From a virus: a stretch of DNA of 41,362 bases. The stretch is taken from positions 1 through 41,362 of IMG/VR virus record IMGVR_UViG_3300030104_004394. One strand, 5' to 3'. Numbering within the stretch: the stretch's first letter is position 1; each line of letters begins with the position of its first letter. Positions 11,847-20,556 of the stretch are shown here, in pieces. The position numbers and the translations under genes were made by a program. The notes under the pieces are model-generated. The model was not told where the DNA came from. It worked only from the letters and a program-made list of their open reading frames with translations, and did not search any database.

Positions 11847-12085
11847 AGTACCTTTTTTAAATTTGAAATGCGAGCGAGGATATTATTATTACTTCAAAGC
11901 TATGTAATACTTAATCAAGTTAATAAGATTACGGTTGAACTAATTACGCGTCCTCGTCGCAGATCACTTTTCTCCAAGGTAGACTGCTAAGTCATCAAGG
12001 CGGTATTAAATATTACCCTTTGACGCGTATTTTATCAGGTGCACAAATCATATCGAAAGGCAAAATGATTGTAGGTCTTCACCTA
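11847..12085 (-). promoter_or_regulatory. Structured untranslated region upstream of the primase-helicase gene
   Basis: No gene longer than 12 codons is present. At the upstream end GTAGGT and ACCTAC (12086-12081 and 12076-12071) form a 6-bp hairpin at the preceding stop codon, without a clear T-run after it. Further on, TACGCGTC (12029-12022) can pair with GACGCGTA (11952-11945), 8 bp with no mismatch. These enclose a hairpin at about 12022-11996 and GACT/AGTC at 11993-11982, which gives a three-way junction of about 85 nt. Another small hairpin lies at 11932-11904. A 12-codon frame (MICAPDKIRVKG, 12051-12013) overlaps the fold and could be a leader peptide or chance. No known riboswitch class is recognised. 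Confidence 0.45.
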
Positions 12086-12529
12086 CTATGATTGCATACC
12101 GTCTAAAACTAATTGTTTTGTTGTTTCTTCAAGTGTATTTTTTAACAAACCTGTATCATTTTTTAATTCAGGCTTTTTAAAATTTTTACCTTTAACCATG
12201 TCTGGCATATTGAATGGGTTAGATCGTACTAAATTAATACCAGGAGTTTTTGACATATTTGAATTATGTATATTTTTCCAAGCTTTAGTTGTGTTGCACT
12301 GAAAAGCTTCTAATGTTCCTAAAGCTACAACTATAGTATCAATTAAACCATCTAATACTTCTACTCCATCTTTATTATAATAAGCATCTAAAGTTTCATC
12401 TACTTCTTCTTTAAGCAAATCTAATCTAAACTTTAAATATTTTTTTAAAGCAGATTTATTATTTTTATTTTTTGTAATAAATTCGGTAACTTGAAATTTG
12501 TCTTGTAGTTCTTTTATATTATCTAACAC
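12086..12529 (-). CDS. MazG-like nucleotide pyrophosphatase (possible dCTPase)
   Basis: This 147-aa protein has the all-alpha NTP pyrophosphatase signature. LLKEEVDETLDAYYNKDGVEVLDGLIDTIVVALGT (residues about 34-68) supplies the EExxE and ExxD metal ligands. It is followed by AWKNIHNSNMSKTPG, common in MazG/MazG-like phage proteins. Such enzymes split (d)NTPs to (d)NMP and pyrophosphate. It starts 1 nt after the ThyA-fold gene ends, and the cassette also holds a dNMP kinase. In T4 a dCTP pyrophosphatase works beside dCMP hydroxymethylase to remove plain dCTP and supply dCMP, so I infer that role here. General dNTP house-cleaning or alarmone breakdown are alternatives. Confidence 0.8.
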   Translation of the reverse strand: MLDNIKELQDKFQVTEFITKNKNNKSALKKYLKFRLDLLKEEVDETLDAYYNKDGVEVLDGLIDTIVVALGTLEAFQCNTTKAWKNIHNSNMSKTPGINLVRSNPFNMPDMVKGKNFKKPELKNDTGLLKNTLEETTKQLVLDGMQS

Positions 12530-12530
12530 G

Positions 12531-13316
12531 TTATTCCTTTAATAAATATTTTATATTGTTGTTATATTTGTAATTCATAATATCCAAATGCTCCGGCAAA
12601 AAAGTATACAAACTATTTTGTGGTTTAAATGTATACGCTGGTGAATGGTATACTTTGTTGTTTAATTGAGTTTCAACATTTTCAAAATGTTCTCGGTAAA
12701 TGTGTGCATCACCAACAACCATTTTAATATTTTGTGGTTGTAAGTTTGCTAAGCTTGCAAAACTTAAAAGCATCACGCAAGCTAAAATTATATCAGATGG
12801 AATACCAATCATCCAATCGCCGGACCTTTGGTTCCATAAAAGATTTAAGTTAATCCCATCACTCCAAAATTGATAACTGTAATGACAACAAGGTAAATCA
12901 ACTTTGGATAAATTTGATGGGTCCCAGCCAGAAATTAATAATCTTCTGCTTGTTGGGTTTGTTTTTAATTCATTTAATACTTGTTCATATTGATTTACTC
13001 CTCCCCAATTAATCCATTTGTTTCCATAATCAACATTAATATCACCGTCAACGTCAGCCCATTGGTTCCAATAATTACAATTAAATTCTTTAAATGTATT
13101 AATATGTTTTGGTTGTCTAACAAATGCAGCGTATTCGCCTAAAGCACTTTTATAAAAAATTTGTCTTGATGTTAATAAAGGAAAGTATTGTGAAATATTA
13201 AAATCTAAAGTTTGAAATGGTAAACGTTTTGTAACACCGTTTCTGCCTGATTGTGTAATACCTTTTTGTAGAATATTTGAGGCTACTGATAAGTAATCTA
13301 ATTCTACATGACTCAC
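12531..13316 (-). CDS. ThyA-fold pyrimidine C5-transferase, probably dCMP-specific (dCMP hydroxymethylase/methylase-like)
   Basis: This 261-aa protein has the full thymidylate-synthase framework: E61 in the GEYAAF segment, SRRLLISGWDP with the phosphate-binding Arg pair near 123-132, catalytic Cys144 in LPCCH, QRSGD at 163-167, and GDAHIYREH (the His and Tyr that bind the sugar). The residue 31 after the catalytic Cys is Asp175 (GIPSD), where thymidylate synthases have Asn (E. coli N177). In T4 dCMP hydroxymethylase the same place is Asp179, 31 after Cys148, and Asn versus Asp there selects dUMP or dCMP. I therefore prefer a dCMP enzyme making 5-hydroxymethyl- or 5-methyl-dCMP. Ordinary thymidylate synthase remains the alternative. 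It sits between the DUF1599 gene and the MazG-like gene. Confidence 0.82.
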   Translation of the reverse strand: MSHVELDYLSVASNILQKGITQSGRNGVTKRLPFQTLDFNISQYFPLLTSRQIFYKSALGEYAAFVRQPKHINTFKEFNCNYWNQWADVDGDINVDYGNKWINWGGVNQYEQVLNELKTNPTSRRLLISGWDPSNLSKVDLPCCHYSYQFWSDGINLNLLWNQRSGDWMIGIPSDIILACVMLLSFASLANLQPQNIKMVVGDAHIYREHFENVETQLNNKVYHSPAYTFKPQNSLYTFLPEHLDIMNYKYNNNIKYLLKE

Positions 13317-13320
13317 AATA

Positions 13321-13503
13321 TTAATCCCTTAACTTTAGGTTTTTGCAACTATAAACGTGCAACACACCTCTATCATCTTCAACAACAACTCTTATTGCAT
13401 TTGAAAGTTTTGGAAATATAGAAACAACTGTGCCATCAAAAGTATAATCTCCTCCAACTTTTGAAACTTTATCTCCTATTTTAAAAGTATTTTCATTTGA
13501 CAT
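13321..13503 (-). CDS. Possible internal start: free SH3-like 60-aa protein
   Basis: ATG at 13503 lies inside the longer DUF1599 frame and has an AAGAGG ribosome site 5 nt upstream. It would yield a 60-aa protein of SH3/KOW appearance (MSNENTFKIGDKVSKVGGDY). The strong internal ribosome site suggests that a once separate gene was fused in frame to the DUF1599 gene but still gives its own product. This is inference from the site and the domain border. Confidence 0.45.
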   Translation of the reverse strand: MSNENTFKIGDKVSKVGGDYTFDGTVVSIFPKLSNAIRVVVEDDRGVLHVYSCKNLKLRD

Positions 13504-13779
13504 ATTTACCTCTTGTTTTTTATTTTTAAGATACGCAGCAAACATGCATGCATAAACTGCCATATCCATTAATGTATCGTCTAAAGCTTCAAAGTTTGTT
13601 TTTTGATTACCTTCAATAATATTTCTCATTCTTAAATATTTAGTGTGCAACATGTGAGCATAAGATTTTTCTTTGTACGGAAAGTAATCAACTTCTTTCC
13701 ATGTGCTGCCTTGATAGTCTTGAGATTTTTTCTTTTTTAATTCAGCGGCTTCAATTAATAATTGTTCTGCAGTAATCAT
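13321..13779 (-). CDS. DUF1599 (nucleotide-modification-associated) protein with C-terminal SH3-like domain
   Basis: Residues 1-90 look like the DUF1599 family (KKKKSQDYQGSTWKEVDYF, then HTKYLRMRNIIE, then DDTLMDMAVYACMFAAY), a MazG-related helical domain often found near nucleotide-modification genes. Residues 93-152 (FKIGDKVSKVGGDYTFDG, then VVVEDDRGVLHVYSCKNLKL) look like a small SH3/KOW-type barrel that is usually a separate protein. Met93 (13503) is preceded by AAGAGG at 5 nt spacing, so a separate short product is likely made as well. The gene joins the kinase gene with a one-base overlap. The exact reaction is unknown. Confidence 0.78.
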   Translation of the reverse strand: MITAEQLLIEAAELKKKKSQDYQGSTWKEVDYFPYKEKSYAHMLHTKYLRMRNIIEGNQKTNFEALDDTLMDMAVYACMFAAYLKNKKQEVNMSNENTFKIGDKVSKVGGDYTFDGTVVSIFPKLSNAIRVVVEDDRGVLHVYSCKNLKLRD

Positions 13780-14252
13780 TATTTTTGTTCGTAAATTTCT
13801 TTTTTAATAAATTCATCAGTGTTGTTTTCTGCGTAATTAAAAATTTTAAAATATGGAAACATGTTTTTAAGCAAAATATATCCGTCATAAACTTTACCCA
13901 TTTGTTCAAAAGTTATGTTTGGATTATTACGTTCTTCAAATCGCGCTAGCACTTTAGCTTTAGGAGGTAAGCACAGAATAAATTTTGTATTAACATCATT
14001 TCTTCGCGCATCTTCTTCCATTTGATTTATATTATAAACAGGACCACTTCTAAAAACTGTTCCGTAAATTAATTCAGTGGGCCAATGCCTATCAATAATT
14101 ACATTAGTTAATTTTAAACTTTCTTTATGTGGGCCGTAGGCATGCTTGTACAAACCATGGTGTATATAAAGATAATCTGTTAATTTTTCTTTTAATGCTT
14201 CTGCAAGTCTAGTTTTGCCTGCGCAATCTGGTCCTTCTAAAATAATTTTCAT
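13779..14252 (-). CDS. Deoxynucleoside monophosphate kinase-like protein (thymidylate-kinase fold)
   Basis: This 157-aa P-loop kinase has EGPDCAGKT (residues 6-14) as the Walker A loop. IDRHWPTELIYG near residues 53-64 is like the DR(Y/H) substrate segment of thymidylate kinases, and RFEERNN near 104-110 could be the lid. It would phosphorylate a dNMP to a dNDP. In T4 the gp1 kinase performs this step for hydroxymethyl-dCMP as well as dTMP and dGMP, which fits the nearby ThyA-fold, DUF1599 and MazG-like genes. The ATG overlaps the stop of the gp3.5-like gene, so translation is coupled. Substrate choice cannot be read from the sequence. Confidence 0.8.
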   Translation of the reverse strand: MKIILEGPDCAGKTRLAEALKEKLTDYLYIHHGLYKHAYGPHKESLKLTNVIIDRHWPTELIYGTVFRSGPVYNINQMEEDARRNDVNTKFILCLPPKAKVLARFEERNNPNITFEQMGKVYDGYILLKNMFPYFKIFNYAENNTDEFIKKEIYEQK

Positions 14253-14650
14253 ATTCCTAACTCTCTTATTGTTGATTTTATTTGTAGTTGTCCGTACTTA
14301 AGTATTAAGTCGTTAACTAATTTGTTTAATGCTTTTGTTTGTAATTCGTTAAATTTATAGTGACCTACTAAAGCTATTCCAATAGTCTCACCTTTATCAT
14401 CATCTAGATTAAAACCTATTTGATCGACTGGTCTTCCCTTTTTTACATCACCATCAATTGTAATTATAAAATGAAAACCAATTCCTAATAATCCAGATTT
14501 TCTATGCTGCGCATCTATTTGTTCTTTTGTAACATCTAAATTTGTAGGTGTTTTTGTTGAGTCTATAAAAATATACTTAGTCGACTGACGGTTTTTTAGG
14601 CCTGACGTCTGCTTCAGCAATCCACTCTTTGGGTATTGTTTCTTTTGCAT
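14249..14650 (-). CDS. 3.5: Degenerate T7 lysozyme (gp3.5)-like protein, probably without amidase activity
   Basis: The core (STKYIFIDSTKTPTN, then IDAQHRKSGLLGIGFHFII, then IGIALVGHYKF) aligns by eye with T7 gp3.5. However, T7 zinc ligand His17 falls at Asp (IFID), catalytic Tyr46 is Phe (GFHF), and the protein ends at KSTIRELGI, before the T7 segment carrying His122, Lys128 and Cys130. Known of the family: T7 gp3.5 is both a zinc amidase and a binder and inhibitor of the phage RNA polymerase. I infer that only the regulatory role remains, with the separate GH24 lysozyme (28064-27639) doing wall lysis. The start is uncertain: ATG at 14650 or 14662, or TTG at 14620, all inside the endonuclease gene. 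Confidence 0.72.
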   Translation of the reverse strand: MQKKQYPKSGLLKQTSGLKNRQSTKYIFIDSTKTPTNLDVTKEQIDAQHRKSGLLGIGFHFIITIDGDVKKGRPVDQIGFNLDDDKGETIGIALVGHYKFNELQTKALNKLVNDLILKYGQLQIKSTIRELGI

Positions 14651-14990
14651 ACTTAAATCCATTTGTTTGACACCACTTAGCGTAAGTAGTTTTTGATATT
14701 TTACTGATACGTTGATTTGGGTTTGAAAATACAAATCTAATATCAATCGCTGGGTATTGAGCTTTAACTGAAAGATGTTTTTGTCTATCTTTCGTTAAAA
14801 ATCTGCCTTTTGCTTCAATGACAATGCCGTTAGGCAAAACAAAATCTGGCGTGTATCTAGAATTTTTGGCTGGTCTTAAGTATCTAATTGTAAATGTTTC
14901 ATAACTTACAGGAACGCCTAGCTTTTTTAATTGCTGAGCTATGCGTTCCTCAAGTCCACTTCTAAATAAAATCTTCTTTTGAAGTTTCAT
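14577..14990 (-). CDS. 3: Endonuclease I, Holliday-junction resolvase (T7 gp3-like)
   Basis: This 137-aa protein (T7 gp3 is 149 aa) has the catalytic pattern of the family. An early Glu lies in GLEERIAQQL, YTPDF supplies D49, and IEAKG supplies E59 and K61. The C-terminal part, including KTTYAKWCQTNGFKYA, is also typical. In T7 it resolves branched DNA before packaging and breaks host DNA. It overlaps the SSB gene by 29 nt at its start and the gp3.5-like gene at its end, a tight T7-like arrangement. Confidence 0.93.
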   Translation of the reverse strand: MKLQKKILFRSGLEERIAQQLKKLGVPVSYETFTIRYLRPAKNSRYTPDFVLPNGIVIEAKGRFLTKDRQKHLSVKAQYPAIDIRFVFSNPNQRISKISKTTYAKWCQTNGFKYAKETIPKEWIAEADVRPKKPSVD

Positions 14991-18229: not shown

Positions 18230-19261
18230 TTAAAATCCTATGACTTTTGCCACTTGGTCACCATTTAGGTCACTAGTATTTTCTAAAGCTTTACGAGCTT
18301 CAGTTTTATTTCGTGGAGCTAAATGAGCATATCTAAGTGTCATTTTAATTGTTTTGTGTCCCATTAATTCTTGTATCACAGTTATTCCAATACCTGCCTG
18401 TACTAATCTTGAAGCAAAAGTATGCCTAGTACAATGAAAAGTAAATTGTTTATCGTCCTGTAAACCTAATTTAATCTTAGCAAAATTCCAAGCTTTTCTT
18501 AAATGCTCATCAGATATATTTGCAAATGGGTATCTGCCTCTTCTTTTAAGTATTTTAAGAGCTCTATCTGTTAACTCAATATACCTTGGAAATGGAGCTT
18601 TAGCTTTAGTAGTCATAATAGTTAATACTCGGCCATCAATGTCTCGCTCCTGGTCTATTCTTTTAAGCTCAGATTTTCTACCACCACAATCATTACCAAA
18701 TGCCACTAAATCAGCCACATCATGATAACCTTCAGAATATAAAGCTGCTAAAAATCTATTTTCTTCTTCTAATCTAAAATATCTTATTCTGCCCTGGCCT
18801 TCTATAAACCATTCTATTTCAGGTTTAGATTTAATATAGTTTCTTTTTTTAGCATGACTTAATATTTTTGATAACGCTGCTAGTTTACGATTACAAGTGC
18901 TGTCTGCATTACCATCTGATTTCCAGTCTTCTATTAAGTGGTCTATTAGCTCTTCATCAATAGTAGTTATTTTTCTGTGCACACCTACTTGAATAACTAA
19001 ATTTTTAGCTGTTCTTAATCCATGTGGATCTTTCCATTTATGTTGCATTTGTGTAAATATTGCGTGAATGGATAAGTCTTTACGCGCTAAATCTAATTCT
19101 TTACAAATAAGCTGCCAACTTTTACCTTCTTTTAAACCTTTCTCGCAATGAGCTTCAGCTGCTTTAGCATCAGTTTCATCACCAAGTATCTGAGTTCTAT
19201 GTCTTTTTCCATTGTGTGTAATATCTAATTGAAAACCTTTATTTCTTTGTCTATAAGCCAT
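18230..19261 (-). CDS. int: Tyrosine-family integrase
   Basis: This 343-aa site-specific recombinase has the catalytic set in order: Arg195 (GGRKSEL), Lys near 219-221, His276-x-x-Arg279 (HCTRHTF), His302 (MGHK) and the nucleophile Tyr311 (LRYAHL). Residues about 60-150 look like the SAM-like core-binding domain, with the catalytic domain following. Its ATG is only 22 nt from the 5' end of a tRNA-Leu gene on the opposite strand, so attP is most likely inside that tRNA. Integrase-bearing pelagiphages are known to integrate into host tRNA genes. No separate excisionase is recognised; one of the small genes upstream may serve. Confidence 0.95.
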   Translation of the reverse strand: MAYRQRNKGFQLDITHNGKRHRTQILGDETDAKAAEAHCEKGLKEGKSWQLICKELDLARKDLSIHAIFTQMQHKWKDPHGLRTAKNLVIQVGVHRKITTIDEELIDHLIEDWKSDGNADSTCNRKLAALSKILSHAKKRNYIKSKPEIEWFIEGQGRIRYFRLEEENRFLAALYSEGYHDVADLVAFGNDCGGRKSELKRIDQERDIDGRVLTIMTTKAKAPFPRYIELTDRALKILKRRGRYPFANISDEHLRKAWNFAKIKLGLQDDKQFTFHCTRHTFASRLVQAGIGITVIQELMGHKTIKMTLRYAHLAPRNKTEARKALENTSDLNGDQVAKVIGF

Positions 19262-19283
19262 ATAATTACCTTTCTAAATGTTT

Positions 19284-19369
19284 GGCCTCATGCTGAAATT
19301 GGTAGACAGTCACGACTTAAAATCGTGTGGGTTTTACCCGTCCGAGTTCGAGTCTCGGTGAGGCCACCA
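19284..19369 (+). tRNA. tRNA-Leu (anticodon UAA), complete with CCA; probable attP core
   Basis: All arms fold. The acceptor is GGCCTCA (19284-19290) with TGAGGCC (19359-19365), then A and an encoded CCA. The D-arm is CTG/CAG with GGTAGA in the loop. The anticodon stem is CACGA/TCGTG around CTTAAAA, giving UAA. The long variable arm has GGGT/ACCC, and the T-arm is CCGAG/CTCGG with TTCGAGT. A long variable arm plus UAA identifies leucine. It is the only gene I find on the plus strand, between integrase and the MarR-like gene, which is the classic place of an attachment site. Most phages carry only the 3' part of the target tRNA; here the whole gene is present. Confidence 0.93.
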
Positions 19370-20280: not shown

Positions 20281-20556
20281 TTAAGTTAAAATATTACGAT
20301 ATTTATCCTTGTTTGTAAACGTTGCACTAAAGAAATTATTACACACACAAACAGGGCAATTTATACTACCTGTAGATGTATTTATATAATGATTTCCTTT
20401 ACATGTAGTACAAATGGTCTCTGTTTTTACTTCACCTTTACCCTCACAATCGTCACATTTTGCATGAACTTCTTCTTTAGCTAATGCATAATCTACTCTT
20501 GTAAAGCCATTTCCTTTGCAAGTTAGGCACTTACTTTTTGTTTTTTCCTGAGCCAT
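20281..20556 (-). CDS. DnaJ-type zinc-finger protein
   Basis: This 91-aa protein consists almost only of CxxCxGxG-like units: CLTCKGNG near residue 10, CDDCEGKG near 34, CTTCKGN near 49, and CPVC near 70. The pattern is that of the cysteine-rich zinc-binding region of DnaJ, without a J domain. Such small proteins are common in phages and may bind RNA or act as chaperone-like adaptors. The exact role is unknown. Its ATG overlaps the end of a small membrane protein gene. Confidence 0.75.
   Translation of the reverse strand: MAQEKTKSKCLTCKGNGFTRVDYALAKEEVHAKCDDCEGKGEVKTETICTTCKGNHYINTSTGSINCPVCVCNNFFSATFTNKDKYRNILT

Follow-up and report, generated by a model that had tools for sequence, protein, structure and literature searches.

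A putative cytosine-modification cassette with a dCMP-type thymidylate synthase-fold enzyme in a Votkovvirus-type pelagiphage

A four-gene nucleotide cassette in a small pelagiphage

The window analyzed here is the whole 41,362-base stretch of an IMG/VR virus record. It carries a T7-type gene set (RNA polymerase, T7 endonuclease I, SSB, primase-helicase and family A polymerase) as well as head-tail connector, capsid and tail genes and an integrase gene. Its closest cultured relatives are the Pelagibacter phages HTVC119P and HTVC200P (genus Votkovvirus). The window phage is a small Votkovvirus-type (Autographiviridae) pelagiphage, in agreement with a preliminary description of the sequence as a T7-like marine phage. 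Pelagibacter is an abundant ocean bacterium, and its phages are among the most numerous marine viruses. The features of the cassette are as follows:

12086-12529, minus strand: MazG-like protein (ORF call; PF01503 and acid cluster)
12531-13316, minus strand: thymidylate synthase (TS)-fold, or ThyA-fold, enzyme (ORF call; PF00303, AlphaFold2 model)
13321-13779, minus strand: DUF1599 protein (ORF call; phrog_18404 and a conserved motif)
13779-14252, minus strand: P-loop nucleotide kinase (ORF call; GPDCAGKT and DRHWP motifs)
12138-13783, minus strand: exchanged block, 81% identical to siphophage Kolga, with flanks ~84% identical to HTVC119P

The four ORFs follow each other with a 1-nt gap, a 4-nt gap and then a 1-nt overlap, the tight joining that had been described before. 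The DUF1599–TS–MazG set also occurs in three further window-type contigs and in Kolga-type contigs, where DUF1599 is absent only if the contig begins at TS. In a third group (L033-L035), the three are separate genes within one neighborhood. The association is therefore kept across three phage backgrounds; no cellular relatives were found in a search of genome contigs.

A TS-fold enzyme with Asp in place of the canonical Asn

The TS-fold protein has 261 amino acids and matches PF00303 with E=3e-62. Its AlphaFold2 model (pLDDT 87) has a TM score of ~0.9 against solved TSs, and the nearest PDB folds are methylating TSs. The fold and the catalytic residues (C144, R164, S165, D167, H205 and Y207) are those of canonical ThyA, but the Asn at E. 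coli position 177 is replaced by Asp175. Cys144 and Asp175 align with Cys146 and Asn177 in E. coli and with Cys148 and Asp179 in T4 gp42; both the 31-residue spacing and the T4 parallel pointed out in the preliminary description thus hold. Asp occupies this position in 37 of 37 clade sequences aligned, at identities down to 38-45%, an invariance far above chance expectation. A local alignment shift at Asp175 was considered and rejected, because no gap is needed to align the stretch from Cys144 to Asp175, which contains QRS.D, with E. coli ThyA, and because the Asp is invariant. Asn-to-Asp substitution at TS position 177 is known to shift the enzyme toward dCMP, N177D/N229D variants preferring dCMP; Asp177 TS genes also mark contigs enriched for modified cytosine, in which TS co-occurs with PF01503 (PMC8670742).

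A phylogenetic tree, suggested as a check in the preliminary description, was built from 39 rows with the trait columns masked. The window enzyme falls into a clade of its own with Kolga, KF-1, VPMS1, PH1, Amaethon and others (support 100/100), and the N177 ThyA group (94/96) excludes this clade. Asp96-Tyr97 lies within a '(V/I/L)DYG' motif that corresponds to E. coli positions 93-94. Asp96 is invariant across the window clade, whereas all canonical TSs aligned have Val or Ile there. The Ser167 and Arg126 equivalents are retained in the window enzyme, as in enzymes for deoxy substrates. From these residues, the protein is predicted to be a dCMP-type C5 enzyme, probably a dCMP methylase and less likely a hydroxymethylase.

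In sequence as in fold, the closest characterized relatives are TSs, and phages commonly carry a TS, as would be expected of an ordinary thymidylate synthase that has a neutral Asp substitution and supplies dTMP for phage replication. We consider this reading very improbable. Every clade member aligned has the Asp, and so do two unrelated enzymes of the same genomic slot (see below); the published N177D/N229D variants prefer dCMP (PMC8670742), the N177 clade does not include this one, and a second active-site position, Asp96, is changed too.

Different TS-fold enzymes with Asp177 occupy the same slot

The flanking DNA of HTVC119P and HTVC200P is 82-84% identical to the window. The window follows HTVC119P at ~84% identity as far as the stop codon of the kinase gene (13779) and once more from ~12145 onward; between those points it matches the Pelagibacter siphophage Kolga at 81% identity, other Kolga matches in the compared region being short. 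The DUF1599–TS–MazG block has replaced an HTVC119P-type enzyme in the window lineage with near base-pair precision. At 12086-12145 (minus strand), the MazG gene of the window is chimeric at its 3' end, where the final codons, QLVLDGMQS, are those that close the HTVC119P TS-fold gene; judged from the sequence, this ending is a recombination scar.

The same slot holds a different TS-fold enzyme in HTVC119P and HTVC200P (22-23% identity to that of the window) and a third one in the relative S28C10 (31% identity). Asp177 is present in these enzymes as well, and all of these phages, the window type included, have the same kinase beside the slot. We regard the retention of Asp177 and of this kinase across such different enzymes as the best single argument for a role of the slot in dCMP modification.

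The best solved relative of the HTVC119P slot enzyme is the CMP hydroxymethylase MilA, and the enzymes of both HTVC119P and HTVC200P combine Asp177 with an Asp three residues before the catalytic Cys (Cys-3). They are predicted to make 5-hydroxymethyl-dCMP, the product favored by these residues. Pelagiphages of one genus thus seem to exchange cytosine-modification kits. The two genes concerned are annotated as TS (1494-2342 in HTVC119P, L044; 1355-2173 in HTVC200P, L045) and look like cytidylate hydroxymethylases.

Active-site residues favor 5-methyl-dCMP as the product

The hydroxymethylase signature defined in T4 dCH consists of Asp/Glu at Cys-3 and Ser/Thr94-x-Tyr96, with the C-terminal tail missing; the D145N mutant is inactive, and Ser94 (E. 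coli Val93) touches Asp145 and binds the proton-relay water (PMC6400193). The window enzyme shares Asp at T4 position 179 (Asp175) but otherwise departs from this signature. Cys-3 is Leu141, a Leu as in TS throughout the window clade. The residue two before the catalytic Tyr is Val95 rather than Ser/Thr, and the relatives have Ile/Leu/Val there followed by the invariant Asp. A C-terminal tail is present, in which NNNIKYLLKE aligns with E. coli HPGIKAPVAI. In comparison, Asp is found at Cys-3 in T4 gp42, SPO1 gp29, MilA, HTVC119P/200P and AXL3, and Asn in the XP12 group, represented here by AXL1 and DoCa10. A simple T4 homologue was rejected from the signature and the tree. Thus, the modified-cytosine reading of the preliminary description gains from the dCMP-type residue and the nucleotide-cassette context, but its T4-type scheme is not supported if hydroxymethylation is meant.

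The residues better match an XP12-type dCMP methylase, with Asp177 and no acid at Cys-3, although in the tree the window enzyme is on a separate branch from the XP12-group enzymes and nearer canonical TS. Given the Leu at Cys-3 and the TS-like C-terminal tail, the most likely product on residue evidence is 5-methyl-dCMP, which we hold to be about twice as probable as 5-hydroxymethyl-dCMP.

The invariant Asp96 counts against methylation, since it lies in the pocket of the T4 dCH reactive water and could, as a displaced acid, restore hydroxymethylation. The window enzyme would then be a third type of dCMP hydroxymethylase, in which the water-activating acid has moved from Cys-3 (T4 Asp145) to Asp96 in the same pocket to give 5-hydroxymethyl-dCMP. 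The clade-wide conservation of Asp96, its absence from the canonical TSs aligned, the contacts of the equivalent T4 Ser94 with Asp145 and the relay water, and the presence of signature hydroxymethylases in the same slot of sister phages all speak for this. Hydroxymethylation also gives back THF and so does not depend on a DHFR, a gene not found in the window. It is nonetheless an unlikely alternative, though one to be taken seriously: Cys-3 is Leu as in TS, T4 D145N is inactive, the TS-like tail is present, and the nearest PDB folds are methylating TSs. More tentatively, and at somewhat less than even odds, the window clade may be a third, undescribed dCMP-specific TS-fold class with its own acid, Asp96, and pelagiphages of a single genus may switch their cytosine between a 5hmC type (HTVC119P/200P) and a 5mC type (window lineage) by trading one gene block with an unrelated siphophage that infects the same host group.

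MazG, DUF1599 and kinase partners

The MazG-like protein scores 34.5 bits against PF01503 (cut-off 21.3) and has an intact EExxE...ExxD acid cluster (E41, E42, E45, E57, D60 and D64), which substantiates its earlier designation as a MazG-like pyrophosphatase. Its nearest solved relative is DR2231. We predict from these matches that it removes dCTP, perhaps also dUTP, and supplies dCMP.

The DUF1599 assignment made in the preliminary description is supported by a phrog_18404 match (7e-14) and a strongly conserved shared motif, but the PF07659 score of 23.6 bits is below the Pfam gathering cut-off of 25 bits. DUF1599 is nucleotide modification associated domain 1, and the protein has in addition a small C-terminal domain (residues ~95-150). 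In phrog_18404, MazG matches the first part and DUF1599 the second. MazG and DUF1599 are fused in XP12-group proteins encoded beside TS, and the window DUF1599 protein is homologous to the C-terminal half of these fusions. Serratia phage SP1, which is T4-like, has a DUF1599-like gene just ahead of gene 42, its dCMP hydroxymethylase gene. The small C-terminal domain (13321-13490, minus strand) also occurs on its own, separate from DUF1599, in Rhizobium phage RHph_N1_10, where it lies immediately upstream of an Asn177 TS gene, as well as in Erythrobacter phage R6L and Ruegeria phage Tedan.

The kinase is a P-loop nucleotide kinase by its motifs, though its family matches are sub-threshold. A PDB profile search returned SPbeta YorR (1.1e-8), followed by TMK-like proteins above 0.02; T4 gp1 was not among the matches listed. 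The earlier dNMP kinase call is compatible with a P-loop nucleotide monophosphate kinase whose nearest solved relative is YorR rather than T4 gp1. The structure model (pLDDT 54) was too poor for use. We predict from its position and motifs that this kinase phosphorylates modified dCMP; the lack of a match to any dNMP kinase with established hmdCMP specificity counts against the proposal below.

A proposed cytosine-replacement pathway

The genes, their conserved residues and synteny, the fusion and the cassette swap are all directly established. Our interpretation, which we consider likely, is that the cassette encodes a pre-replicative cytosine-replacement pathway whose product is most likely 5-methyl-dCMP, with C in virion DNA partly or wholly replaced. 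The MazG-like enzyme, probably together with the DUF1599 protein, would hydrolyze dCTP to dCMP, thereby excluding ordinary C and making the substrate; this dCTPase activity is one that we infer. The TS-fold enzyme would use Cys144 and methylene-tetrahydrofolate to put a one-carbon group on C5 of dCMP, Asp175 reading the cytosine N3/N4 edge, and most likely release 5-methyl-dCMP. Phosphorylation by the P-loop kinase, and next by the NDP kinase of the host, would yield the modified triphosphate for incorporation by the T7-type DNA polymerase of the phage. With some or all of its C replaced, virion DNA might be shielded from host nucleases. Substrates, product, step order, DNA content and protective role are all predicted here from residues, synteny and published relatives. 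Counted against the proposal, no phage DHFR for dihydrofolate recycling was seen in the window, while XP12-group phages have one beside TS. Counts of 4-base palindromes revealed nothing diagnostic. As already noted in the preliminary description, the window ORFs searched include no glucosyltransferase or other tailoring enzyme.

MazG and DUF1599 could also serve pool sanitation, and the cassette might then be a pool or regulatory module in which 5-substituted dCMP is made, or dCTP merely removed, without stable incorporation into virion DNA. This is quite improbable in our judgment, as the kinase beside the enzyme is retained through every slot replacement, and the XP12, T4 and AXL3 groups, which have related modules, possess modified or digestion-resistant DNA.

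Comparison with known systems

Among the closest known systems is the XP12 group (Bradleyvirinae: XP12, AXL1 and DoCa10), which shares Asp177, the lack of an acid at Cys-3, and adjacent MazG and DUF1599. XP12 DNA has 5-methylcytosine (PMC7653180, PMC9206674). The XP12-group enzymes differ in being only 19-20% identical to that of the window, on another tree branch, with Asn at Cys-3 and Pro after the Cys; AXL1 also has DHFR and dCMP deaminase genes beside TS, neither of which was found in the window. The T4 pathway (gp56 dCTPase, gp42 and gp1 kinase) resembles the proposed one in dCTP removal, dCMP C5 modification, a kinase step and the Cys-Asp spacing of gp42. In contrast, the window enzyme is 21% identical to gp42, lacks the Asp145 and Ser94 equivalents and has the C-terminal tail, and the window has a kinase nearest YorR and no glucosyltransferase found.

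The MilA/SPO1-like enzymes of HTVC119P, HTVC200P and AXL3 share Asp177 with the window enzyme but carry the hydroxymethylase signature, with Asp at Cys-3, no tail and no E. coli Trp80 equivalent. In HTVC119P and HTVC200P the slot and the adjoining kinase are the same, but no DUF1599 or MazG adjoins the slot enzyme. AXL3 encodes an HTVC119P-like TS, ThyX, a kinase and a pyrophosphohydrolase, and its DNA resisted every one of the 35 enzymes tested whose sites contain G/C (PMC7504290). The 'thymidylate synthases' of KF-1, VPMS1, PH1 and Amaethon belong to the window clade, have the Asp96 and Asp175 equivalents and are followed by a nucleotide pyrophosphohydrolase; they differ in their identity of 38-45%, their gammaproteobacterial hosts and, for several, an encoded dCMP deaminase. 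The literature searched contained no restriction tests on KF-1, VPMS1 or PH1 DNA and no enzyme assay or nucleoside analysis of the window clade.

No report of cytosine modification in Autographiviridae pelagiphages was found in the literature searched, and cytosine substitution seems unreported for Pelagibacter phages. The only proposal found concerns thymine hypermodification via TS in HTVC023P-type pelagiphages (PMC9599517), a different phage group with a thymine target and an aG/PT-PPlase route. If the proposed pathway exists, these phages may be underestimated by metagenomic methods in which modified DNA is lost, and defenses that depend on modification may come into play in marine hosts. 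The CMoRE nuclease, for example, cleaves 5hmC but not 5mC DNA (PMC12923530), and a phage might therefore escape by changing from one modification to the other. Since cultures of HTVC119P, HTVC200P and Kolga exist, the idea is open to direct test.

Other features of the window

The 239-nt gap between the MazG and primase genes (11847-12085, minus strand) is 90% identical across 12 relatives and is a candidate structured RNA. Its fold has 60 consensus pairs with 98.8% of cells paired, and 14 compensated (two-sided) pairs versus 0-3 in slid controls; no Rfam match was found. The element terminates at the primase ribosome-binding site and is present in HTVC119P/200P-type phages from both sides of the cassette swap. 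The GAAAGG immediately ahead of the primase start codon is part of its outer helix, and the element may accordingly regulate in cis by masking the ribosome-binding site.

The region 18230-19369 holds the integrase gene beside a complete tRNA-Leu(taa) gene (19284-19369, plus strand). This site is a probable attP, and the window phage may therefore be temperate; a 54-nt exact tRNA-Leu pattern searched for the host attB gave no host match. A 91-aa protein (20281-20556, minus strand) with a DnaJ-type CXXCXGXG zinc-finger region and weak matches to anti-termination Q-like/Anti-TRAP proteins is a possible regulator. Two lysis-type genes encode an amidase_2 (14249-14746, minus strand) and a phage lysozyme (27639-28064, minus strand). 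The listed start of the amidase_2 gene is a TTG that gives an overlap of ~170 nt with endonuclease I; it is probably too early, because the HTVC119P homologue has 297 nt.
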